In this document: positions 4,368 through 18,175 of the stretch, piece after piece
Layout: each line of letters starts with the position of its first letter
Numbering within the stretch: position 1 is the first letter of the stretch
From: Pontibacter roseus DSM 17521
GTDB taxonomy: Bacteria > Bacteroidota > Bacteroidia > Cytophagales > Hymenobacteraceae
Length of the DNA: 64,000 nucleotides
Reading direction: 5' to 3'
NCBI RefSeq assembly: GCF_000373265.1
Contig: NZ_KB890766.1
Span: 218,594 to 282,593, forward strand
Translations under genes and position numbers: made by a program
Notes under the pieces: generated by a model
What the model saw: the letters and a program-made list of their open reading frames with translations, nothing else
What the model was told of the DNA's origin: nothing
Databases searched by the model: none

Positions 4368-5513
4368 CTATCCGATGTAGATGGCTGCCGCTTTGTCGCG
4401 CAGGTTGTAGGACGAGGCCATCACCTCTCCGTAGGCGCCGGCCGTGCGGATGGCAATCAGGTCGCCACGGTTCGTCTCCGGAAGCGCCACTGCTTTGCCA
4501 AAACAGTCGGACGATTCGCAGATGGGGCCTACCACGTCGTAGCGCTCTTCCTCGGCCGTGCTGCTGAGGTTCTCAATCTTGTGGTACGACTGGTACAGAG
4601 CAGGCCGAATTAGTTCTGTCATACCTGCATCCAGAATGGCGAAGTTCGTTGTAACTCCTTTCTTGATGTAGAGCACTCTGGAGATGAGGCTGCCACTTTG
4701 GGCCACCAAAGCCCTGCCCAGTTCGAAGTGCACCTGCTGGCCGGGGCGCAGCTCCAGGAACTGGTTGAACAAAGCAAAGTATGCCTCAAAGTCAGGTATA
4801 GGCTGCTGCTCCGGGTTGTAGTAGTCCACTCCCAAGCCGCCACCTACGTTGATGTGCTCCAGTTGCACGCTATGCGACTCAAAGAACTCCTGAAACTCGT
4901 TCACGCGGGTGCATAGGTTCCTGAACGCGGAAAGGTCTGTGATTTGGGAACCGATGTGGAAGTGCAAGCCAATCAGCGCCAGGTTCGGAAGCGTCTTCAG
5001 CAAGGCCAACACATCGGGCAGTTCCCAGGCATTGATGCCGAACTTGTTCTCCTCCAGCCCAGTGGTGATGTACTTGTGCGTATTGGCGTTCACGTTCGGG
5101 TTGATGCGAAGCGCGATACGGGCTGTTTTGCCTTTGGCGGTTGCCAGCTCGTTGAGCACAATGAGCTCATGGCTCGATTCGCAGTTGAAGCAGAAGATGT
5201 CCTGGTCTAGTGCATAGTTGATTTCCGCATCAGACTTGCCAACCCCGGCGAACACCACATGCTGTGGGCTGAACCCGTTCTCGATGGCACGTTTCACTTC
5301 GTTTCCGCTCACGCAGTCGGCACCGAAACCCACCTGGCGCATCTCGTCCAGTATAGGTCCGTTGGTATTGGCCTTCAGCGCATAATGCACCTGGAAATTA
5401 TACCGCTGGGCCTGCTGCTGTGCTTGCTGCAACGTCTGGCGCAGCAGGTTGAGGTCGTATACATAAAATGGAGTGGCATGTTGCTGCAGCTCCTGCAAGG
5501 AAAGACTAAGCAT
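4368..5513 (-). CDS. lysA: Diaminopimelate decarboxylase
   Basis: PLP-dependent, fold-type III decarboxylase making L-lysine from meso-diaminopimelate, the last step of lysine synthesis. Seen: TPFYVYDLNLLR at the N-terminus, VHYALKANTN with the PLP lysine, HFHIGSQI, the glycine-rich loop HINVGGGLGVDY, ELGRALVAQSG, and CESSDCFG followed by RTAGAYGEVMASSYN. I place the start at the ATG at 5513, preceded by AAAGGAA, rather than at a TTG 18 bases upstream. This ATG overlaps the end of lysC by 8 bases, so the two form an operon with the aspartokinase first. Length (381 aa) is usual for compact bacterial LysA. Confidence 0.94.
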   Translation of the reverse strand: MLSLSLQELQQHATPFYVYDLNLLRQTLQQAQQQAQRYNFQVHYALKANTNGPILDEMRQVGFGADCVSGNEVKRAIENGFSPQHVVFAGVGKSDAEINYALDQDIFCFNCESSHELIVLNELATAKGKTARIALRINPNVNANTHKYITTGLEENKFGINAWELPDVLALLKTLPNLALIGLHFHIGSQITDLSAFRNLCTRVNEFQEFFESHSVQLEHINVGGGLGVDYYNPEQQPIPDFEAYFALFNQFLELRPGQQVHFELGRALVAQSGSLISRVLYIKKGVTTNFAILDAGMTELIRPALYQSYHKIENLSSTAEEERYDVVGPICESSDCFGKAVALPETNRGDLIAIRTAGAYGEVMASSYNLRDKAAAIYIG

Positions 5514-6837
5514 TGTTCGTGTTCCTTTCAAAGATGCCCTCGTTCAGCAGAACTAGGGCTCTTTCTTTATCGGTTGTGTTAATTAATAAACTGATGTTGT
5601 TCTTGCTTCCGCCATAGGAAATCATGCGCAGCGGGATGTCCTTCAACGACTCGAATATCTTGAGCCCGGACCCGCTGCGCTCGGCTATGAAATCGCCTAC
5701 CACACAGATGATGGTTTGGTCCTTGTCAAGCTCCACCTGTCCATACTCTTCCAACTCCTTCGTTATCTCGCTCAGGAACTTCGGGTTATCGATGGTCAGG
5801 GAAACGGCAACTTCTGATGTGGTAATCATATCGATTGGTGTCTTATACCTTTCGAACACCTCAAACACGCTGCGCAGGAAACCATAGGCCAGCAACATGC
5901 GCCCCGACTTTATCTTGATGGCCGTAATGCCGTCTTTGGCGGCCACTGCTTTGATGCTGCCTCTGCCGCTCTGCGCGGAGATGGTGGTGCCTTGCGCCTC
6001 GGGCTGCATGGTGTTGAGCAGGCGCACCGGTATGTTCTTCTGCTTGGCCGGCAGCACGCTGGATGGGTGCAGGATTTTGGCCCCAAAATACGCCAGCTCC
6101 GCCGCCTCGTCAAAAGACAGCTCCGCAATTGGGAAAGTGTTCTTCACCACGCGCGGGTCGTTGTTGTGCATGCCGTTGATGTCGGTCCAGATTTGGATTT
6201 CAGAGGCATCAGCAGCAGCTCCTATAAGCGAGGCGGAGTAGTCGGAACCGCCCCGTTTCAGGTTGTCAACTTCCCCGAAGGCATTGCGGCAGATGTAGCC
6301 CTGCGTGATGAACAGCTTGGCGTTAGGATATTTATCCAGCTCCGTCTTCAGATTTTTGCTGATATAGTCTGTGTCCGGCTCCTCGTTTTCGTCAATCCGC
6401 ATAAAGTTCAGGGCAGGCAGCAGCACCGAAGGTATACCTTGCTCCTCCAGGAAAAACTGGAACAGCGCTGTAGACAGTAACTCGCCCTGTGCCAGCACAG
6501 CACGCTCTTCGTGAATGGTGAAGAGGTCGAGTGTGAAGGAACGGAGGTAGTCGAAATGATGAAGCAGCAGCTCTTGGGCCTGTTTTTTCTTTTCTTCAGA
6601 GGTGTAGAGCGAGTCTACCACCTGTTTATAGGTATGATGCAGCGCATCAATCAGCGCATTGGCTTCTTTGTTGTCGTTCTGGTATAGCTTCTCAGCAATC
6701 TGCACCAGCTGGTTGGTAGTGCCCGACATAGCCGAAAGCACCACTATTTTGGCCTCTCCGTCCTGAATGAGGTCTGCCACGGCTTTCATCCTTTCGGCCG
6801 ACCCTACGGAGGTTCCGCCGAACTTTAAAACTTTCAT
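5506..6837 (-). CDS. lysC: Aspartate kinase, monofunctional
   Basis: Phosphorylates aspartate, the entry step to Lys, Met and Thr (443 aa). The N-terminal amino-acid-kinase motif is MKVLKFGGTSVGSAERM, followed by ITQGYICRNAFGEV, LKRGGSDYSASLIGAAADA and IWTDINGMHNNDPRVV. Two C-terminal ACT domains are expected from about residue 300; GITAIKIKSGRMLLAYGFLR and TIICVVGDFI fit them. There is no fused dehydrogenase or decarboxylase; both partners are separate genes in this window (hom at 2087-3343, lysA overlapping downstream). Feedback control through the ACT domains by lysine or threonine is family knowledge, not visible here. Confidence 0.94.
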   Translation of the reverse strand: MKVLKFGGTSVGSAERMKAVADLIQDGEAKIVVLSAMSGTTNQLVQIAEKLYQNDNKEANALIDALHHTYKQVVDSLYTSEEKKKQAQELLLHHFDYLRSFTLDLFTIHEERAVLAQGELLSTALFQFFLEEQGIPSVLLPALNFMRIDENEEPDTDYISKNLKTELDKYPNAKLFITQGYICRNAFGEVDNLKRGGSDYSASLIGAAADASEIQIWTDINGMHNNDPRVVKNTFPIAELSFDEAAELAYFGAKILHPSSVLPAKQKNIPVRLLNTMQPEAQGTTISAQSGRGSIKAVAAKDGITAIKIKSGRMLLAYGFLRSVFEVFERYKTPIDMITTSEVAVSLTIDNPKFLSEITKELEEYGQVELDKDQTIICVVGDFIAERSGSGLKIFESLKDIPLRMISYGGSKNNISLLINTTDKERALVLLNEGIFERNTNNA

Positions 6838-6992: not shown

Positions 6993-9900
6993 CTAGTTCT
7001 TCATAATCTTGGTAGTGGAGTCCATACCTTGTCCAAGGATTTTGAGGATGTACATGCCTTTGCCAAGCTTTTGCAAGTCAAGTTCCAGCTTGTTTAGTCC
7101 GGCCTCAACTTCTAAGGACTGGGTCATTACGCGTCTACCATTCAGGTCGTAGAGTACTAACTCCACCGTCTGGTCATTTGGTGAGGTCAACGAAATCTTC
7201 ACTCTATCCTGGAACGGATTTGGGTATACCTGCGTGGTCAGCTCGTTGGCCAGACCCTTGGCATTCACGGCGATGACATTGCTGAAGGCAAAGTCGCCAT
7301 CAAAGTCTACTTGCTTGAGCCTGTAGTACACCGTGCCTTGTACTGGCGTTCTGTCGGTGTATTCGTACTTAGTCTCCAAGCTAGTGGTACCCTGGCCTTT
7401 CACAGTGCCTATAATCTCAAAAGACTTACCGTCTTGGCTGCGCTGTACCTCAAAGCGGTCATTGTCGTCTTCCGAGGCAGTGAGCCACTGCAGGTGTGCC
7501 TGGTTGTCACGCACAACCGCCGTAAAGTATACCAGCTCGACTGGGAGCGGAACCACAACCGGTGCATTGCCTAAGATTCGGATGATGATGCTTAGATTAG
7601 TAGGTACGCCAAACTCATCTGTTAGCGTAATGGAGAGCGGGTATACACCTTCTTCCAATGCAGCTGCATTCATTACAAAAATGTTACCAACCGTGCCAGC
7701 TTCTTGTGAAAGGGCGGTGCCTGGAGGAAGGCTTCCCATTGTAATCGTAGCACTAGTAATAACACCGTCCGAATCTGACGCTGTCGCCAGAACATTTCCA
7801 TTAGTATACAGGTTTCTGTAATTCGGCACTGCAATGGTATAGGTTGCAGGACAGTTTAAAGTGATAGTTACTCGGTCCTGAGAGGTACTGGTGCTAGCTC
7901 CGCAAGTAATGCGTGCTGTCCATTCAAAAACATACACACCTCCCGGTATCAGGCCTTCTACAGACGATGTAGGATTGTTTGGATTTATGAATCTGGCAGT
8001 TGATGGGCCACTTACCTGGCCCCAAGTGCCAATACCTGGTGTTACGTCGTTACCTTGTAGTACAACAGTACTTCCGCAAGCTATGGTATCTAGGCCAGCA
8101 TCAGCTTGTTCAACACCATTATTTACCTGAACTGTAGCGGTGTTGAGCAGAGTCAGCGTGCCACAAGTATTTGTGCCGGTCTCGGTTACTTGCACATAGT
8201 AGGTTGCTGGACCTGTAGTCAGTGGACCAGTCGTAATGCCTACTAGGCCTCCGGTTCCAGTAAAGTTTCCATTAATATCTGTTACGCCTGTTTGTATGAG
8301 TGCAGGGTCTACGCTAGGATTGTTTGTAGCACCAAGTCTTCTGCGTATCACATATCTGAAATTAGTGCCCTGCTCTGTAGCAACAAATATTGTTGTTGCT
8401 CCCCCCACGCATATATTGCTGGCCTCCGGAAAGACAATATTGGTGATAGAAGGATTTCTAATAGCGGCAGTGGCCTGACCTGGAAGCGTGATGCTGCATG
8501 GTTCTGTGCCTGTTCTTGGTGTAACTCGCAAACTGAAAGTAGTGAACGTATTCACTTGTCCTGCTTGCACAATGATTGCATTAGTGGCGCCTGGTGTCGG
8601 AGAACCTACTGGTAGACCTGTTGCTTCGTTCAAAAACTGATAATTATAAGCCGAGTTGGTTCCAGTGATGGAGAAGCTAACCGCTTGACCCGGACATATA
8701 GACTGATTGGCATTGGTGATAACTAGACCAGTAGTGACAGGCTGCGGGCGCACAGTTACTGTTGTAGTGTTAGTGGAAATAGCATCACAGTTTGTGCCAC
8801 TTACCCTTCTGGCTCTATACCGGAGGGTTCGGGTAACATCTGAAATTGTCAGATTAGTAAGAGGACCTGAAACCAAGGTAATAGGTCCACCGGTGCCAAC
8901 TACAGAGGTGCCAGATTCGGTCCCATCAGGCAGTAGCAGTCTGTATGATATGCCAAACTCAGAACCAGACAAAGTAACACTTACGGTGGTTCCTCCGCAA
9001 ACTGTTGTGGTTACTGGTGCCAGAGTAAAGGTGGTGGCTGGGGTATTACAAGTTACTATAACAGGGTTTGCCAGTGCGCTTTCACAGCCACCTGCTGTTG
9101 GAGTGAATGTGGCGGATACGGAAGCGCCGGCAAACAATTCTAAGGATGAAATCCCGCTCACTGTCCAGGCTCCATTGTTTACAGTGGCCGTAGTGGGGAA
9201 TGGAGTTCCTTCAATGTAAAGTGTGATAGTTGCTCCGTTTGCAGACGCTGGAGCAGTTCCTGATACAGTGGTAGCCCCTTCGGTGATGGGACTGTTGACC
9301 GTCAACACTCCGGTTGGATTAGGAGTAGCCGTCACTGCGTTGGAGTTGACACTTCTGATACTTCCAGTAGCTAGCGCCCTTGCTGTGATGGCGGTACCTG
9401 CTGGTAAGCCACCTCCTGCAGCTGCAGTTAAGTCTGCTGCCCAAACACCTGTGCTGGTGACTGTAGCAGTGATAGGGGTTGTAGTTCCACTGCGGGTCAC
9501 CAAGGTGCCGTTATCTGCTCCTGCCGTGCCACCTAAGTAGAACTGGATTACTGTGCCAGCCGGCTCCGTGGAGGTGCCTGATAAGGTTGTTACCAAGCCG
9601 CAGTCAGGTTGGTTGATGGTTGGTGTGGTTGTAAATCCAACTACAGAAAGCGGATTGGCTGAGGCGTTGGAGAGCGCTGTACAGCCAGTTGATGCTACCT
9701 CTGTCCTGACAGTAAGGATATCTCCTGCGGTGATTGCTGGCGTTACATCGGTTACATTAAGAGTACGTGTAGTTGCGTTGCCCGTAATAGCCTCTTTAAC
9801 ATTGGTGGCTATCCCATTTCTATAAAGCACTAACGAGCCGCTCGTCACTCCGCCATAATCAATACTAACTATAATAGATGCCAGATTGGCTGGTACCTGT

Positions 9901-11991: not shown

Positions 11992-13203
11992 TTAAAATGA
12001 CAGAACACGCCTAAGAATAACACAGGCTGCATTGCCCCCAAATCCTGCAGCGTTCACCATCACCCGACTGATATGAGAAGGGCGGGAGAAAGGTATAGCA
12101 GCCGGATAAGGTATAGGAGCAAGGCGTTGGCTACGCAGCAGATACAGGGCATAGTGCATGCTCAAAGCTCCGGAGGCACCTAGCGTATGGCCCAACAGCC
12201 ATTTGTTTGTGGTGATGGCCGGTGCAAGCACACTGAAAACAGTCTCTATAGCTGCCAATTCGGCTTTGTCGCCTGCGTAAGTGCCGGGGGTGTGGGTAAT
12301 AATCACATCAACGCCTTGGTTTTGTGAAGGCAGTTGGCTGAGGGCATGGCGCATAGCCTGCTGAAAGTTCTGCCCTTGTGCTGATATGCCTGTTTTGCTC
12401 CCGATTCGCTCAAAACCCAACCCTATGGCTTCAACCACTATATCACCCGCAGCAAGGTCAGCTGTATCGGCCTTTTCAAGAGCAAACACGGCGGCGCCTT
12501 CACCCAGTGTAAAGGTGTTCTGCTTCTCCAGCGCGTATGGCTGACAAGGATAAGGGTGGTTGTGTAATTTGGAGTAGATACCGATGGCTTTCATTTGGGC
12601 GATGGTGAAATCGGTCAGCGGGGCCTCGGTCCCTCCGGCTAGGAACCGCTCTGCCATACCTGCCCGAAGCCAAGCAGCCCCGTTGGCAACCGCCATGAGC
12701 GCTGTGCTGCAGGTGATGGAGTGGCTGATTTGGGCCCCACCGGCGCCGACCGCCTGTGCCACCCAACTGGAGAGGTTGCCTAAGGTGGTGGTGGGGGAGG
12801 AGGAAGGGGAAATCCGCTCTTGCTGAAACGCCTCAAAGTGCGATTCGAACAGGCCGGTGGCGCCACGCGAGGACCCGATGTTGACCGCCAAGCCCTCCTG
12901 CTGGGAATCTGTGTCCCGAGATAGCCACCCCGCCTGCTCAGTGGCCTGCCGGGCGGCGTATATCGCCAGTAGCACGGAGCGGTCCAGGTGCCTGTAATCC
13001 GGGTTGGACTGCACCAGTTGCTGCAGCTTTTGCTCAGCTTCAGCCGGGAGCGAGGCTACGGGAGTAGGCTGGCCCTGGTGCAGGATGGTGCTGAAAGCTT
13101 GTATGCCTGCAAGATACGCCTCTGCCGATGTGGCATCGTCCGAACCGAGTGGCGAAATGACGCCGCACCCCCTGATGACGATATGTTCCTTCGCTGCTTC
13201 CAA
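11992..13203 (-). CDS. Beta-ketoacyl synthase in the biotin cluster
   Basis: FabF/KAS-II-type condensing enzyme (403 aa) of unassigned role. Catalytic residues look intact: Cys165 in HSITCSTALMA, His304 in IITHTPGTYAGDKAE, Lys334/His339 in TNKWLLGHTLGASG. The N-terminal IRGCGVISPLG is typical of Bacteroidota relatives of this family. The first codon of the frame is TTG at 13203; no ATG is available before the conserved region. It is last in the biotin cluster, 125 bases after bioA. Because the cluster has bioA, B, D and F but no pimelate genes, a role in building the pimeloyl chain is attractive but is only inference. It may instead serve another fatty-acid-like product. Confidence 0.85.
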   Translation of the reverse strand: MEAAKEHIVIRGCGVISPLGSDDATSAEAYLAGIQAFSTILHQGQPTPVASLPAEAEQKLQQLVQSNPDYRHLDRSVLLAIYAARQATEQAGWLSRDTDSQQEGLAVNIGSSRGATGLFESHFEAFQQERISPSSSPTTTLGNLSSWVAQAVGAGGAQISHSITCSTALMAVANGAAWLRAGMAERFLAGGTEAPLTDFTIAQMKAIGIYSKLHNHPYPCQPYALEKQNTFTLGEGAAVFALEKADTADLAAGDIVVEAIGLGFERIGSKTGISAQGQNFQQAMRHALSQLPSQNQGVDVIITHTPGTYAGDKAELAAIETVFSVLAPAITTNKWLLGHTLGASGALSMHYALYLLRSQRLAPIPYPAAIPFSRPSHISRVMVNAAGFGGNAACVILRRVLSF

Positions 13204-13210
13204 TTGTATA

Positions 13211-13218
13211 CAAAGGTA
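13211..13218 (-). promoter_or_regulatory. TAnnTTTG-like element at ketosynthase start
   Basis: Read on the minus strand, TACCTTTG matches TAnnTTTG. It ends only 7 bases before the TTG start, so a transcript from it would be nearly leaderless. No -33 TTTG is seen. It may be a chance match. Confidence 0.25.
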
Positions 13219-13328: not shown

Positions 13329-14657
13329 TCAATCGTGCAAGGTTGTGTTTGTTGGAGGTTCGAAGTAGCGTTTGCCAGTAACCAGTTCCTGCATTCCCAA
13401 GATGGTTTGGTATACCTTATCCAGTTGCTCATCGGTAATGCAGTAGGGGGGGATGATGTAGATGATGTTGCCGAGCGGACGCAGTATGACACCCTGTTCC
13501 AGGGCGAAGCTATACAGGGTATCGCCCCACTTGCTGAAGTAGGAGGTGCCTCCCGCTTCGAATTCCACTGCCAGAATGGTGCCCTGTTGCCGCACCTGGG
13601 CTATACCTGGCATAGTGGCTATACCTTGCGCAAAGGTCTCGTGGCGTAGGCTGAGGCGGTTGATGTCCTGCTGCGTTCCATCTTGTAGTAACAGGTCCAG
13701 GCTGGCGAGGCCAGCGGAGCATGCCACAGGGTTGGCAGTATAGCTGTGGCCGTGGAACAGGGTCTTGCGCTTGTCGTCGTGCAGGAAGGCCTCGTAGATT
13801 TTCTCGTTGCAGGAAGTAGCGCCCAGTGCCATGGTACCCCCTGTGAGGCCTTTGGAAAGCGTCACTATGTCGGGTTTGCGTGGCACGTAATCGCTGGCGA
13901 AGGTATGGCCGGTGCGCCCAAAGCCTGTCATCACCTCATCGGCAATGGTCAGTATATCAAATTGTTGGCAAATTTCCAGCAGCCTGTCCAGCACCTCCGG
14001 GGAATACATGACCATACCGGCCGTGCCCAACACCAGCGGCTCGTAGATGAAAGCGGCTATGTCTCCGTCTTGTGCCAATTCCTCCAGTTGCTTTACTGTC
14101 TCTTCTTCCCGTCCAGGTATAGGCACATCAATAAAAGCCACCTCAAACAGGTAGGACCAGAAGGGAGCGGTGAAGGCGCTGCGGGCACTTACGGCCATGG
14201 CCCCAAAAGTATCGCCGTGGTAGCTGTCGCGGAAAGCAATGATTTTCCTTTTGGGCGTGCCCGTGTTCTGCCAGTATTGTATCGCCATCTTCAAGGCCAC
14301 CTCCACCGCCGTGGACCCATTGTCGGAGTAAAAGATGCGACTCTGGCCCTGAGGCAGAATCTCAATCAGGCGCTCCGCAAAGGTGACGGCGGCCGGATGC
14401 GTGAAACCGGCAAAGATGACGTGCTCCAGCGTCTGCAGCTGCTCGGCTACTTTCTGGGCGATGTAGGGGTGCGCGTGTCCGTGCAGGTTCACCCACCAGG
14501 AAGCCACCGCATCAATGTAGCTTTTCCCATCCTCGGCATACAGCAGCGCGCCTTCTCCCCGCACGATGGGTATAGGAAGGGCAGCGGTCTTCATCTGCGT
14601 ATAGGGGTGCCAGATGAAGTTGTGGTCGCGTAGGGCTAGTGAATCGGAGGTAGGCAT
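13329..14657 (-). CDS. bioA: Adenosylmethionine-8-amino-7-oxononanoate aminotransferase
   Basis: PLP aminotransferase (442 aa) that uses SAM to convert KAPA to DAPA in biotin synthesis. Family marks: HNFIWHPYTQMK at the N-terminus, DAVASWWVNLHGH, FYSDNGSTAVEVALKMA, SYHGDTFGAMAVSA, IADEVMTGFGRTG, and the PLP lysine in LSKGLTGGTMALGAT. ATG at 14657. It follows the HEAT-like gene by 48 bases, consistent with one bio operon. A near-consensus TACTTTCG lies at 14676-14683 on the minus strand and could be an internal promoter, but the match is incomplete. Confidence 0.95.
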   Translation of the reverse strand: MPTSDSLALRDHNFIWHPYTQMKTAALPIPIVRGEGALLYAEDGKSYIDAVASWWVNLHGHAHPYIAQKVAEQLQTLEHVIFAGFTHPAAVTFAERLIEILPQGQSRIFYSDNGSTAVEVALKMAIQYWQNTGTPKRKIIAFRDSYHGDTFGAMAVSARSAFTAPFWSYLFEVAFIDVPIPGREEETVKQLEELAQDGDIAAFIYEPLVLGTAGMVMYSPEVLDRLLEICQQFDILTIADEVMTGFGRTGHTFASDYVPRKPDIVTLSKGLTGGTMALGATSCNEKIYEAFLHDDKRKTLFHGHSYTANPVACSAGLASLDLLLQDGTQQDINRLSLRHETFAQGIATMPGIAQVRQQGTILAVEFEAGGTSYFSKWGDTLYSFALEQGVILRPLGNIIYIIPPYCITDEQLDKVYQTILGMQELVTGKRYFEPPTNTTLHD

Positions 14658-14705: not shown

Positions 14706-15272
14706 CTATTGATTGCTGGATAAAAGGCGCTGCAGTAGTTTCTTGCCCCGGCTCTGCATGGCCGGCAACCCGTCTTTCAGAAGAAACGTAATCTGGGCCT
14801 CCAACTCTTCTTTCACCCAAGGGAATTCAGCCCGCAGGTTTACCAGCACATCCAGGCAATTTACCTTCACAGCAACGGGTGTGCGGATGGCTATCAGCCA
14901 TTCAAACACGGTTTCAACCACTGCTGCATGCTCCGTTACAGTCAGCCAAGCTTGTTTATATACAGGCGCTGCTACCGGGCTTGTGCAGCACATCAGGATT
15001 TTGGTGAAATGCCGCTGACAACTCAAGTTGTGCTGCTCAGGTAATCGTGCTATAAACTCCTGCAGGTATGGCGCAAAATGGTCCGGGTAGGTATAGGCAA
15101 CATGCTCCAGCACCCAGGAGGCCCGAAAGGCGACAGTTCTGACTTTTTGAAAAGAAAACGTCAGCAGGTCCTGCACAAAGTTTTGCCCGGAGACGGCCTG
15201 TTTGGCAAGCTTCTGCACACCTATTTTGGTCAGTGGGCGCGACAAAGCCTGGAGCAGTCTGGCTGAATCCAT
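14706..15272 (-). CDS. HEAT-like helical protein in the biotin cluster
   Basis: 188 aa, no signal peptide or membrane segment, predicted all-helical. The repeated pattern of hydrophobic helices (FSFQKVRTVAFRASWVLEHVA, HFAPYLQEFIARLP, PVAVKVNCLDVLVNLRAEFP) resembles HEAT/ARM repeats, as does the other helical protein at 24275-24808. It sits between bioD (93 bases upstream) and bioA (48 bases downstream) on the same strand and so is probably co-transcribed with them. I do not recognise a named family. A scaffold or accessory role in biotin synthesis is possible from position alone; no catalytic motif is visible. Confidence 0.75.
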   Translation of the reverse strand: MDSARLLQALSRPLTKIGVQKLAKQAVSGQNFVQDLLTFSFQKVRTVAFRASWVLEHVAYTYPDHFAPYLQEFIARLPEQHNLSCQRHFTKILMCCTSPVAAPVYKQAWLTVTEHAAVVETVFEWLIAIRTPVAVKVNCLDVLVNLRAEFPWVKEELEAQITFLLKDGLPAMQSRGKKLLQRLLSSNQ

Positions 15273-15365: not shown

Positions 15366-15980
15366 TTACAGGTACGGCACGAATTCCCTTGCGTATTCGG
15401 CCACCGTCTCCTGACAGAAATCCGCTTCCTGCCGGATAGAGGGAAGGCGACGCAAACCGGTATACTTGATAATGAAGTCCTCGGATGTCTGGTTCTCCTC
15501 GCCGTTGAAGATGATGCCGGCCACCGGTACTTTGCGGTAGCGCAGCACTTCTGCCGTGAGTAGGGTATGGTTGATGCTGCCCAGGTAGTTGCGGGAGACC
15601 AGTATCACCTCCAGCCCCAACTGCTGCACCAGGTCCAGTACCAGGTAGCGCTTGTTCAGGGGCACCATTAAGCCTCCGGCGCCTTCCACTATCAGGTTGT
15701 TCTGTGTGTCGGGCAGTGTCAAGCCGTGGACGTCAATCTCTATACCTTCGGCCGCCGCCGCCTTATGTGGCGATGAGGCCATTTTGAGGCGGTAGGCTTC
15801 CGGGTGGAACACGGATTGCTCATTCGAGACCAGACTCTTGACCATGTCTGTGTCGGTGAAGTCAAGGCCGCCCGCTTGCACGGGTTTCCAGTAATCGGCC
15901 TGCAGGGCTTCGGTGAGTATGGCTGCGGCAACAGTCTTGCCTACGTCCGTACCGATGCCTGTTACAAAATATCGTTTCAT
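15366..15980 (-). CDS. bioD: Dethiobiotin synthetase
   Basis: ATP-dependent ureido-ring closure of DAPA to dethiobiotin (204 aa, slightly shorter than the E. coli enzyme). The P-loop is FVTGIGTDVGKTVAAA at residues 5-20; YWKPVQAGG and VEGAGGLMVPLN are the conserved substrate and Mg/ATP regions. Its ATG overlaps the bioF stop by 4 bases (ATGA), so translation is coupled. The C-terminus (DFCQETVAEYAREF) is ordinary. Confidence 0.93.
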   Translation of the reverse strand: MKRYFVTGIGTDVGKTVAAAILTEALQADYWKPVQAGGLDFTDTDMVKSLVSNEQSVFHPEAYRLKMASSPHKAAAAEGIEIDVHGLTLPDTQNNLIVEGAGGLMVPLNKRYLVLDLVQQLGLEVILVSRNYLGSINHTLLTAEVLRYRKVPVAGIIFNGEENQTSEDFIIKYTGLRRLPSIRQEADFCQETVAEYAREFVPYL

Positions 15981-17125
15981 GTCCCTTTCGCTAAGGCCTG
16001 CACGAGGCCGTCAATTTCATCTTCTGTATTATATGCATGCACAATCACGCGAAGCCTTTCCGTGCCAGCAGGCACAGTAGGGGGCAGCACGGGTCGCACA
16101 TCAAAGCCATCTTGTTGCAGCGCAGCCGCTAGCGCCTTGAGCTGCTGGGGCTGTTGCGGGAAAACAGACAGTATCATGCTGTTTTCCGGGGTGCAGCGTA
16201 TGCCGCTAAGTTTGTTCAGTTTCAGGTACAGTCGGGTAGCGAGTTGCTGCACGCGCTCTCGCTCCGGCTTGAGTTCGGGCAGCAGGGTATAGGCGCACTT
16301 CAGGGCTACCAGCGCATGCGTAGGCAGGCCTGTCGTGTAAATGAATGCTCTGCTATAGTTAATCAGAAAGTCACGCAGCACTCTGGGCCCTACCACGGCG
16401 GCACCGTGGCAGCCCATGGCTTTGCCACAGGTGATGACCTGCGCGAATACCTGTTCCTGCAGCCCCAGGGCCACAGTCAGGCCTTCTCCTTTTTCGCCGT
16501 ATAAACCCACGGCATGGGCTTCGTCAACAATTAACGTGGCTCCTTGTGCGTTACATAGCTGAGCCAGTTCCCGCAGGGGAGCCTGGTCACCATCCATGGA
16601 GTATACTGATTCCACCACCACGTATACCTGCCCGGTCGCATGCTTCAGCTTCTGCCGCAGGTCTTCCACGCTGTTGTGCCGGAAGCTGTAGGTTTTGGCA
16701 TAACTCAGCCGCAGGCCGTCCTTCATAGAGGCATGGCTGGCTTCGTCATAGAACACGGTGTCGCCACGCTGCGGCAGGGCAGACAGCAGCCCCACGTTAG
16801 CGGTATAGCCCGAGTTGAAAAGCAGTGCCGCCTCCCCCTGGTGGTAGGACGCGATGGTATCTTCCAGCTCTTCGAAAAGGCTGTGGTTACCGGACAACAG
16901 TCGGGAGCCTGTCGCTCCCAATGGCAAGTGTCTGTAATGTTCCTCTTCCTGCTGGATAAGCGCCCGCAACCGTTCAGAGCGGGCAAGGCCGAGGTAATCG
17001 TTCGAGCAGAAGTCAACGAGGCCAGTAGTGGTTTTGAGCGTACGCAGAGTGTTCTGCGCCGCCCTTTCCGCCAGCTTCTGCTGTAATTTTTGAGACAAAG
17101 GAATATTTGACAAAGGACAGAGCAA
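15977..17125 (-). CDS. bioF: 8-amino-7-oxononanoate synthase
   Basis: PLP alpha-oxoamine synthase (about 382 aa) condensing a pimeloyl thioester with alanine. Seen: TTGLVDFCSNDYLGLARS, GATGSRLLSGNHSLFEELE, ALLFNSGYTANVGLLSALP, FYDEASHASMKDGLRLS, LIVDEAHAVGLYGEKGEG and the PLP lysine in VITCGKAMGCHGAAVVG. The frame opens directly after a stop with TTG at 17125 and no ATG precedes the conserved region, so a TTG start (17125 or 17113) is likely. It lies 48 bases after bioB and overlaps bioD. Related KBL enzymes differ in context; the bio neighbours settle it. Confidence 0.92.
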   Translation of the reverse strand: MLCPLSNIPLSQKLQQKLAERAAQNTLRTLKTTTGLVDFCSNDYLGLARSERLRALIQQEEEHYRHLPLGATGSRLLSGNHSLFEELEDTIASYHQGEAALLFNSGYTANVGLLSALPQRGDTVFYDEASHASMKDGLRLSYAKTYSFRHNSVEDLRQKLKHATGQVYVVVESVYSMDGDQAPLRELAQLCNAQGATLIVDEAHAVGLYGEKGEGLTVALGLQEQVFAQVITCGKAMGCHGAAVVGPRVLRDFLINYSRAFIYTTGLPTHALVALKCAYTLLPELKPERERVQQLATRLYLKLNKLSGIRCTPENSMILSVFPQQPQQLKALAAALQQDGFDVRPVLPPTVPAGTERLRVIVHAYNTEDEIDGLVQALAKGT

Positions 17126-17173: not shown

Positions 17174-18175
17174 TTAGCACACGTGCTGCACTTCTTCTTT
17201 GAATGATTTCCGTGGAGTCAAACCTAACAAGTCGAACATGGCCTTGTCGGCATCGAAATCCGGGTTTGGAGTCGTCAGCAGCTTCTCGCCTGTGAAAATA
17301 GAATTCGCGCCGGCCAGGAAGCAAAGTGCCTGCTCGGTCACGTTCATCTGCTCACGGCCAGCCGAGAGGCGCACCATTGTCTTCGGCATCAGGATACGGG
17401 CCGTGGCAATCATGCGCACCATCTCCCAAACCGAAACACGCGGCTGGTTCTCCAACGGCGTCCCTTTCACGGGCACCAGCGCATTGACCGGTACCGACTC
17501 TGGGTGCTGCACCAAAGTAGACAAGGTATGGAGCATGCCTATGCGGTCTTCATCCGTCTCGCCCAACCCGATGATTCCACCCGAGCAAACCGATATACCT
17601 GCTTTCCGCACGTTCTCAATGGTGTCGAGACGGTCGTCGTAGGTGCGGGTCGTGATGATGTTTGAATAGTTTTCCTCTGACGTGTCGAGGTTGTGGTTGT
17701 AGGCATATAAACCAGCCTCTTTCAGCTTCTCGGCCTGGTACTCGTTCACCATACCCAGGGTACAGCATACTTCCAAGCCCATCTCGTTCACCCCCTTCAC
17801 CATGTCCAGCACTTTGTCGAAGTCGCGGTTGTCGCGCACCTCGCGCCAGGCGGCACCCATGCAGAAACGGGTGGAACCGCCATCTTTGGCACGCTGCGCC
17901 GCCGTGAGCACCTGCTCCTGGCTCAGCAGCTTGTGCACCTCCACATCGGTATGGAAACGGGCCGCTTGCGGACAGTAAGCACAGTCTTCGGGACAGCCGC
18001 CGGTTTTCACGGATAGCAGGGTGCATACCTGCACCTCACCAGTAGCCTGGTGTTGCTTGTGCACAGTGGCTGCCTCTACAATAAGCTCCAGCACGGGCTT
18101 GTAGTAAATCGCCTTGATTTCCTCCAGGCTCCAGTCGTTTCGAATAGCTGCGTTCTGTCCGTTTAGTGTCGTCAT
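17174..18175 (-). CDS. bioB: Biotin synthase
   Basis: Radical-SAM enzyme (333 aa) that inserts sulfur into dethiobiotin. The radical-SAM cluster is CPEDCAYC (CxxxCxxC) in [17 protein letters not shown]. Other BioB marks: [54 protein letters not shown] and [11 protein letters not shown] at 18175. It is the first gene of the cluster bioB-bioF-bioD-HEAT-bioA-ketosynthase on the minus strand, so regulation of the operon should act upstream of it. Confidence 0.96.

Follow-up and report, generated by a model that had tools for sequence, protein, structure and literature searches.

A KASII-type ketosynthase family linked to biotin genes in Bacteroidota, with a candidate role at the pimelate stage

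The window, i.e. the whole stretch of 64,000 nucleotides of Pontibacter roseus DSM 17521 analysed here, belongs to a 4.58-Mb genome in 12 contigs (98.6% complete). It contains a minus-strand gene run in the order bioB-bioF-bioD-orf188-bioA-KS, with a KASII-type ketosynthase (KS) as the last gene (Table 1). The gaps along this run measure 48, -4, 93, 48 and 125 bases, and the gaps flanking it on either side hold no ORF of at least 70 aa. The four biotin genes expected from the original prediction (bioF, bioA, bioD and bioB) are present, each as the best NCBIfam match of its ORF, with bioF below its cut-off. Genes for an ACP, a FabG-like or a FabZ-like protein were not found in the cluster, whose gaps do not exceed 125 bases and whose 188-aa ORF is without family match. 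ORFs similar to the latter occur in the Pontibacter loci L044-L046 and L050.

Scans of the cluster returned promoters (8, 5.5 expected) and terminators (5, 6.9 expected) in numbers near chance, so that an operon boundary could not be drawn. Directly ahead of the TTG start of KS, at window positions 13211-13218 of the minus strand, lies TACCTTTG, which we take to resemble the -7 promoter box of Bacteroidota; because of this resemblance KS may be transcribed from a promoter of its own, or else start later. The genes lysC and lysA are located one gene downstream of the biotin cluster (window 4368-6837). ORFs that look like lysC and lysA by eye also follow the cluster in another Pontibacter (L050) and in a Hymenobacter (L052).

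Table 1. Features of the biotin cluster and codons of selected KS residues; positions refer to the window.
Feature	Position	Strand	Details
KASII-type ketosynthase (KS), biotin-linked clade	11992..13203	-	403 aa, TTG start
bioA	13329..14657	-	TIGR00508, 542 bits (cut-off 405)
188-aa ORF between bioD and bioA	14706..15272	-	no match in NCBIfam and Pfam
bioD	15366..15980	-	TIGR00347, 132 bits (cut-off 83)
bioF	15977..17125	-	TIGR00858 best match, 361 bits, under equivalog cut-off of 426
bioB	17174..18175	-	TIGR00433, 405 bits (cut-off 225)
Codon of nucleophile Cys165	12709..12711	-	
Codon of catalytic His304	12292..12294	-	
Codon of Lys334	12202..12204	-	
Codon of catalytic His339	12187..12189	-	
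Codon of Arg113	12865..12867	-	motif GSSRGA, at position of FabF gate Ile108
Codons of Gln203-Met204	12592..12597	-	aligned with the Gly-Phe pair of FabF gate Phe202

The KS ORF matches the Pfam families ketoacyl-synt (83 bits) and Ketoacyl-synt_C (61 bits), both over the cut-off of 20.8. The residues predicted as an intact catalytic triad, Cys165, His304 and His339, are all encoded at these positions, as is Lys334, and the GFGG loop is preserved too. Collapsing the 95 family ORFs leaves 83 distinct proteins, and every one of them retains Cys165, His304, Lys334, His339 and Phe388 of the GFGG loop. The AlphaFold model of KS has a mean pLDDT of 87 and a pTM of 0.91, with residues 132-139 as its least confident part, and the ten solved structures that match it best are all of FabF (TM 0.85-0.88). 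With Cys-His-His triad, lysine, GFGG loop and FabF fold, KS displays the features of the FabF/KASII class. The earlier description as "FabF-like" is thus correct for fold and class but does not extend to FabF proper, since the fabF equivalog model TIGR03150 yields only 169 bits against a curated cut-off of 493.75. The closest named relatives of KS come from Pontibacter (68-72% identity).

A second, far better ketoacyl-synthase domain match (189 versus 84 bits) is present on contig C1 of the same genome and bears the FabF-type motif GSGIGG. In a tree of 44 family rows and 22 other ketosynthases, one branch parts the two sets with a support of 100/100; the program excluded L069 (less than 10% of columns filled), and the long branches L090, L091, L129, L130 and L137 are of uncertain placement inside the family. 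The KS profile separates members from other proteins by a score gap as well, 232 versus 182 bits in 218 Bacteroidota genomes and 263 versus 153 bits in 32 genomes of a second phylum (the phylum of G366). KS is a member of a separate monophyletic KASII-type family. A misplaced housekeeping FabF is ruled out by score and tree.

In a sample of 150 genomes from the family of the window's genome, 121 possess KS with at least 301 bits, and the best scores of the other 29 stay below 100 bits. Among the 218 Bacteroidota genomes KS occurs in 18, all of which also possess bioA. The synteny with biotin genes that was suggested for Bacteroidota is borne out in every one of these 18 carriers, as KS either adjoins a biotin gene or is found at most two ORFs away from one. 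In 14 of the 18, bioA lies on the same strand within about 0.6 kb of KS; two ORFs separate bioA from KS in G188 and G302, and KS adjoins bioB in G202 and bioF in G325. The second phylum contributes 17 carriers in 32 genomes. Here the neighbour of KS is bioF (7), bioA (4), bioB (3) or bioD (2) in 16 carriers, and in the seventeenth, G404, a distance of about 5.5 kb separates KS from bioB-bioF. Names were initially given to the neighbours by their likeness to the proteins of the window; those beside KS in loci L155-L168, which include the neighbours in G202 and G325, were rechecked by NCBIfam. In this recheck bioB (4) and bioD (2) scored over their cut-offs; bioF (8) was always the best match, with 307-349 bits and 132 bits for a contig-end fragment (cut-off 426), scores that stay under the cut-off like that of the bioF of the window. 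As the neighbour varies between bioA, bioF, bioD and bioB, the association argues for a functional tie and not for a frozen gene pair.

Of 30 loci from the named collection, 27 hold members of the family, and L071-L073 were dropped as non-members. In 24 of the 27 loci bioA is present, and bioF in L069. Biotin genes and KS abut in L055 and L059 and leave no space for an additional gene. Two loci show that the family is not strictly bound to biotin genes: L063, a Capnocytophaga MAG, has a KS with the Arg motif (8004-9164) within 17 kb devoid of any bio gene, and L064, an Aminicenantes MAG, carries KS on a 5-kb contig likewise devoid of bio genes. The KS of L063 is either a remnant, or the biotin cluster is located elsewhere in that genome. 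L066 is a contig titled Bdellovibrio with the arrangement bioA-KS, but the tree places its KS within a Flavobacteriaceae-like branch, so that misbinning of the contig or a gene transfer is likely; the single MAG contigs L066 and L064 are therefore not counted as further phyla. Plasmid-borne copies of KS were not detected at E 1e-30. According to the neighbour lists, no gene besides the bio genes recurs beside KS in both phyla. Similar acyl-CoA dehydrogenase-like ORFs are found near KS in L154, L156, L164 and L166 of the second phylum, and models of acryloyl-CoA reductase and glutaryl-CoA dehydrogenase match the ORF of L154 with scores under their cut-offs. Response-regulator-like ORFs, too, are shared by three of the four loci, which suggests local synteny, and no conclusion was drawn from the acyl-CoA dehydrogenase.

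Columns of KS were transferred to E. coli FabF numbering via shared motifs, which presumably mark equivalent positions. By this alignment to solved FabFs, Arg113 would be located in the acyl pocket, at its gate. All 83 distinct proteins of the family share the arginine, and none of the 30 control ketosynthases has it, the controls showing Ile (16), Val (8), Leu (2), other residues (3) or a gap (1) in this column; one piece of the control L071 reads Gln here. Gln203 is present in 78 of 83 family proteins versus 1 of 30 controls, and position 204 is Met or Leu in 81 of 83 versus 2 of 30, with Phe in 26 of the 30 controls. Furthermore, loop 2 of FabF is altered in KS, and His161, four residues before the nucleophile, is shared by 68 of 83 family proteins. 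Membership for these residue counts required at least 230 bits on a profile that itself includes the Arg column; a single column cannot create the score gap, and the gene context is independent of the column. In FabF, I108 and F202 are described as gating residues of the acyl pocket (PMC7138838), and a solved I108F mutant of the Bacillus enzyme exists. An invariant arginine at the gate provides a concrete reason why KS could accept an unmethylated omega-carboxyl primer. A primer with a free omega-carboxylate would require positive charge at the bottom of the pocket, and for BioZ the pocket-bottom residues S84, R147 and S287 have been proposed to neutralise the carboxylate of the glutaryl group; BioZ R147A keeps partial activity and S84A and S287A do not support good growth (PMC8024396). 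Arginine by itself need thus not be decisive.

BioC, BioW and the BioE-like protein were sought in the genome of the window and not found: BioC reaches at best 61.6 bits (cut-off 185), BioW (pimeloyl-CoA ligase, PF03744) was not found, and the bio-linked BioE-like protein has no match. The BioE-like profile was built from an alignment of four bio-linked ORFs of about 210 aa beside bio genes; at three of these loci the ORF and a GntR-aminotransferase (MocR-type) regulator point away from each other. The label is given by context, which matches the BioE-BioL description in PMC12915131, and not by a published BioE sequence. As no BioW was found to activate pimelate, rescue by pimelate of a KS loss, one of the tests originally suggested, is unsuitable.

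BioC carriers were defined by a full-length or near-full-length match of at least 136.9 bits, the next best matches having at most 98.7 bits. Under this definition BioC is carried by 72 Bacteroidota genomes, 47 with a match over the curated cut-off and 25 with one of 147-172 bits (in one case cut by a contig end), and by 6 genomes of the second phylum, one of them with a match over the curated cut-off. The bioA scores are bimodal in the 218 Bacteroidota genomes, with 109 genomes at 499 bits or more and the rest at 338 bits or less. The 109 bioA-positive genomes are composed of 66 with BioC, 18 with KS, 7 with the BioE-like protein and 18 with none of these, with zero overlap. That all 18 KS carriers fall within the 109 has a hypergeometric probability of 1.8e-6, and Fisher's test of KS versus BioC among the bioA genomes gives 3.6e-9; both values ignore shared ancestry and are overstated. 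The exclusion of KS and BioC is confounded by ancestry, as the BioC carriers among the sampled Bacteroidota belong to two families. The second phylum has 17 genomes with KS and 6 with BioC, again without overlap. BioC exceeds its cut-off in none of 12 KS genomes reached via their loci (best 82.5 bits), two of which also belong to the 17 second-phylum carriers. A bioC elsewhere in the genome, which would have weakened the idea of a ketosynthase route, was accordingly not found in the genome of the window, the other 17 Bacteroidota carriers, the 17 second-phylum carriers and the 12 locus genomes, with absence being weaker evidence in the latter two sets, which are of unstated completeness. A BioC-like gene (147-168 bits) without a bioA over the cut-off occurs in G210, G229, G256, G299, G307 and G350. 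The bioA-positive genomes with none of BioC, KS and BioE-like protein are G150, G152, G155, G156, G157, G160, G165, G198, G199, G207, G221, G239, G270, G274, G294, G303, G312 and G355; these 18 of 109 Bacteroidota either use further pimelate routes or are pimelate auxotrophs.

The support for a role of KS in pimelate synthesis is comparative and consists of the family, the biotin-gene context, the BioC-free genomes, the catalytic site and the invariant arginine. KS is probably a dedicated pimelate-stage ketosynthase that takes the place of BioC and of the esterase working with it, and elongates a free omega-carboxyl thioester. The ketosynthase-based pimelate route of the original prediction is supported by the biotin-gene context, the lack of BioC in the carriers and the gate arginine. 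In such a route the active cysteine of KS would be loaded with an omega-carboxyl primer, i.e. malonyl- and/or glutaryl-ACP or -CoA, whose free carboxylate would pair with Arg113, perhaps together with Gln203, at the bottom of the pocket. Malonyl-ACP would serve as the extender in a decarboxylative condensation adding two carbons, each round would be completed by the general FabG, FabZ and enoyl reductase, and the product pimeloyl-ACP would pass to BioF. A methyl ester would be unnecessary, because the carboxylate would be held directly by KS. The arginine would also shorten the pocket, so that the C7 product would not be re-accepted. Since the cluster is devoid of ACP, FabG and FabZ genes, general enzymes must accept the carboxylated intermediates. 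In the case of BioZ, general enzymes can finish the carboxylated C7 chain, according to PMC7645780 and PMC8024396.

The nearest alternative leaves the role of KS unchanged and differs in the primer and its metabolic source. As in BioZ, the sole primer would be glutaryl-CoA or -ACP, supplied by the breakdown of lysine or a similar catabolic path and elongated in one round to C7 and not in two rounds from malonyl-ACP. BioZ uses glutaryl-CoA, followed by general fatty-acid enzymes (PMC7645780 and PMC8024396), and such use of general enzymes would account for the missing ACP, FabG and FabZ genes in the cluster. It is a serious rival, because the BioZ precedent covers the finishing of C7 and not a C5 round. 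The lysC and lysA genes one gene downstream, with their look-alikes in L050 and L052, could be read in the same direction, but both belong to the synthesis of lysine and not to its breakdown; moreover, malonyl-ACP is the proposed start for the FabF-type ketosynthase of Desulfovibrio (PMC10102598). We give the restriction to glutaryl primers somewhat less than an even chance.

The remaining alternatives remove KS from the condensation that leads to pimelate. Pimelate could be supplied by another, undetected enzyme, such as a BioI-type P450, a divergent oxygenase or a KASIII paralogue acting as BioZ, with KS as an accessory. The 18 of 109 bioA-positive Bacteroidota that lack BioC, KS and the BioE-like protein point to further routes or to auxotrophy, and the genome of the window has four KASIII-type genes, two strong (FabH-like by score) and two weak. 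These genes, however, lie on contigs other than that of the biotin cluster, and no gene other than the bio genes recurs beside KS in the neighbour lists of both phyla, so that this explanation appears unlikely. KASII paralogues are common, and the 17 kb without bio genes around the KS of L063 would fit a paralogue that makes a different lipid or polyketide and is merely located in the biotin operon. Against this stand the change of the bio neighbour by lineage (bioA, bioF, bioD, bioB), the fact that BioC was never found alongside KS, and the abutting genes of L055 and L059 with no room for another gene; we regard such a paralogue as very improbable. Some ketosynthase homologues have decarboxylase or thioesterase side activities, and KS might in principle act in this way on malonyl- or pimeloyl-ACP instead of condensing. 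Hardly any weight is given to this option, as Cys165, His304, Lys334, His339 and Phe388 are retained in 83 of 83 proteins, the pattern expected of a fully condensing enzyme.

Of the two halves of the biotin pathway, the start is the variable and poorly known one. A dedicated pimelate-stage KS could fill the pimelate gap in 18 of the 109 bioA-bearing Bacteroidota and in 17 of the 32 second-phylum genomes, and if this role is true, prototrophs could be hidden among the genomes rated pimelate-deficient. The arginine switch also opens a long-standing question to direct testing, namely whether BioC has to disguise its substrate by methylation for no other reason than the greasy pockets of ordinary ketosynthases. 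In addition, the engineering of biotin or dicarboxylic acids could employ KS as a one-gene module. On balance we favour, with some reserve, the broader view that a stand-alone KASII-type enzyme with a gate arginine represents a further, unrecognised start of biotin synthesis by direct elongation of free dicarboxylic thioesters; it would have originated among the ketosynthases independently of BioZ and would serve a considerable share of the biotin-making Bacteroidota and about half of the second, little-known phylum, in genomes without BioC.

Among the papers listed from an open-access library, whose scope leaves out most subscription papers and preprints, there was no report of KS in biotin clusters of Bacteroidota and no enzymology or genetics of the KS family. 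The accessible portions of a 2024 biotin review (PMC11089781) and of a paper on Balneolaceae (PMC9909488) do not mention a KS of Bacteroidota biotin clusters. Among known systems, BioC-BioH and BioE-BioL act at the same step of the pathway and provide the pimeloyl-thioester for BioF. They differ from the proposed reaction of KS, BioC-BioH by the methyl-ester disguise and BioE-BioL by cleavage of an acyl chain, and neither BioC nor the BioE-like protein co-occurs with KS in the 218 Bacteroidota genomes. FabF (KASII) shares with KS the fold, the catalytic residues and the GFGG loop. KS differs from it by Arg in place of Ile108, Met in place of Phe202, the altered loop 2, a score far below the equivalog level and its separate clade.

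A fatty-acid-type pimelate route was predicted from the Desulfovibrio bio operon by Rodionov and co-workers (PMC545781). In D. vulgaris the genes of the bio cluster are needed for growth without biotin, as judged from transposon fitness; besides a FabF-like ketosynthase they encode a special ACP, a 3-oxoacyl-ACP reductase and FabZ-like proteins. The route proposed for them dispenses with methyl esters, and such clusters were found in only a few phyla of anaerobes (PMC10102598). As described there, DVU2563 is a KASII-type ketosynthase in a bio cluster of a genome without bioC and also without bioH, and the cluster of the window likewise combines a ketosynthase with the absence of bioC. The two differ in that KS is the sole fatty-acid-type gene of its cluster, which has no ACP, FabG-like or FabZ-like gene, and in the spread of the KS family, DVU2563 being compared by its description and not by sequence.

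BioZ, finally, is a ketosynthase of bio clusters too, and is described as making pimeloyl-ACP from a free omega-carboxyl primer with a polar or charged pocket bottom. It is a KASIII enzyme (FabH-like, Cys-His-Asn), whereas KS has a Cys-His-His triad like FabB and FabF. KS is not a BioZ, as its third catalytic residue is His339 and its Pfam matches are ketoacyl-synt and Ketoacyl-synt_C; that it belongs to a different family from BioZ, as originally predicted, is thereby confirmed. What appears to be new here is a KASII-type ketosynthase of another class than BioZ, set apart from the Desulfovibrio genes by gene content and spread, that would follow the same logic as both.
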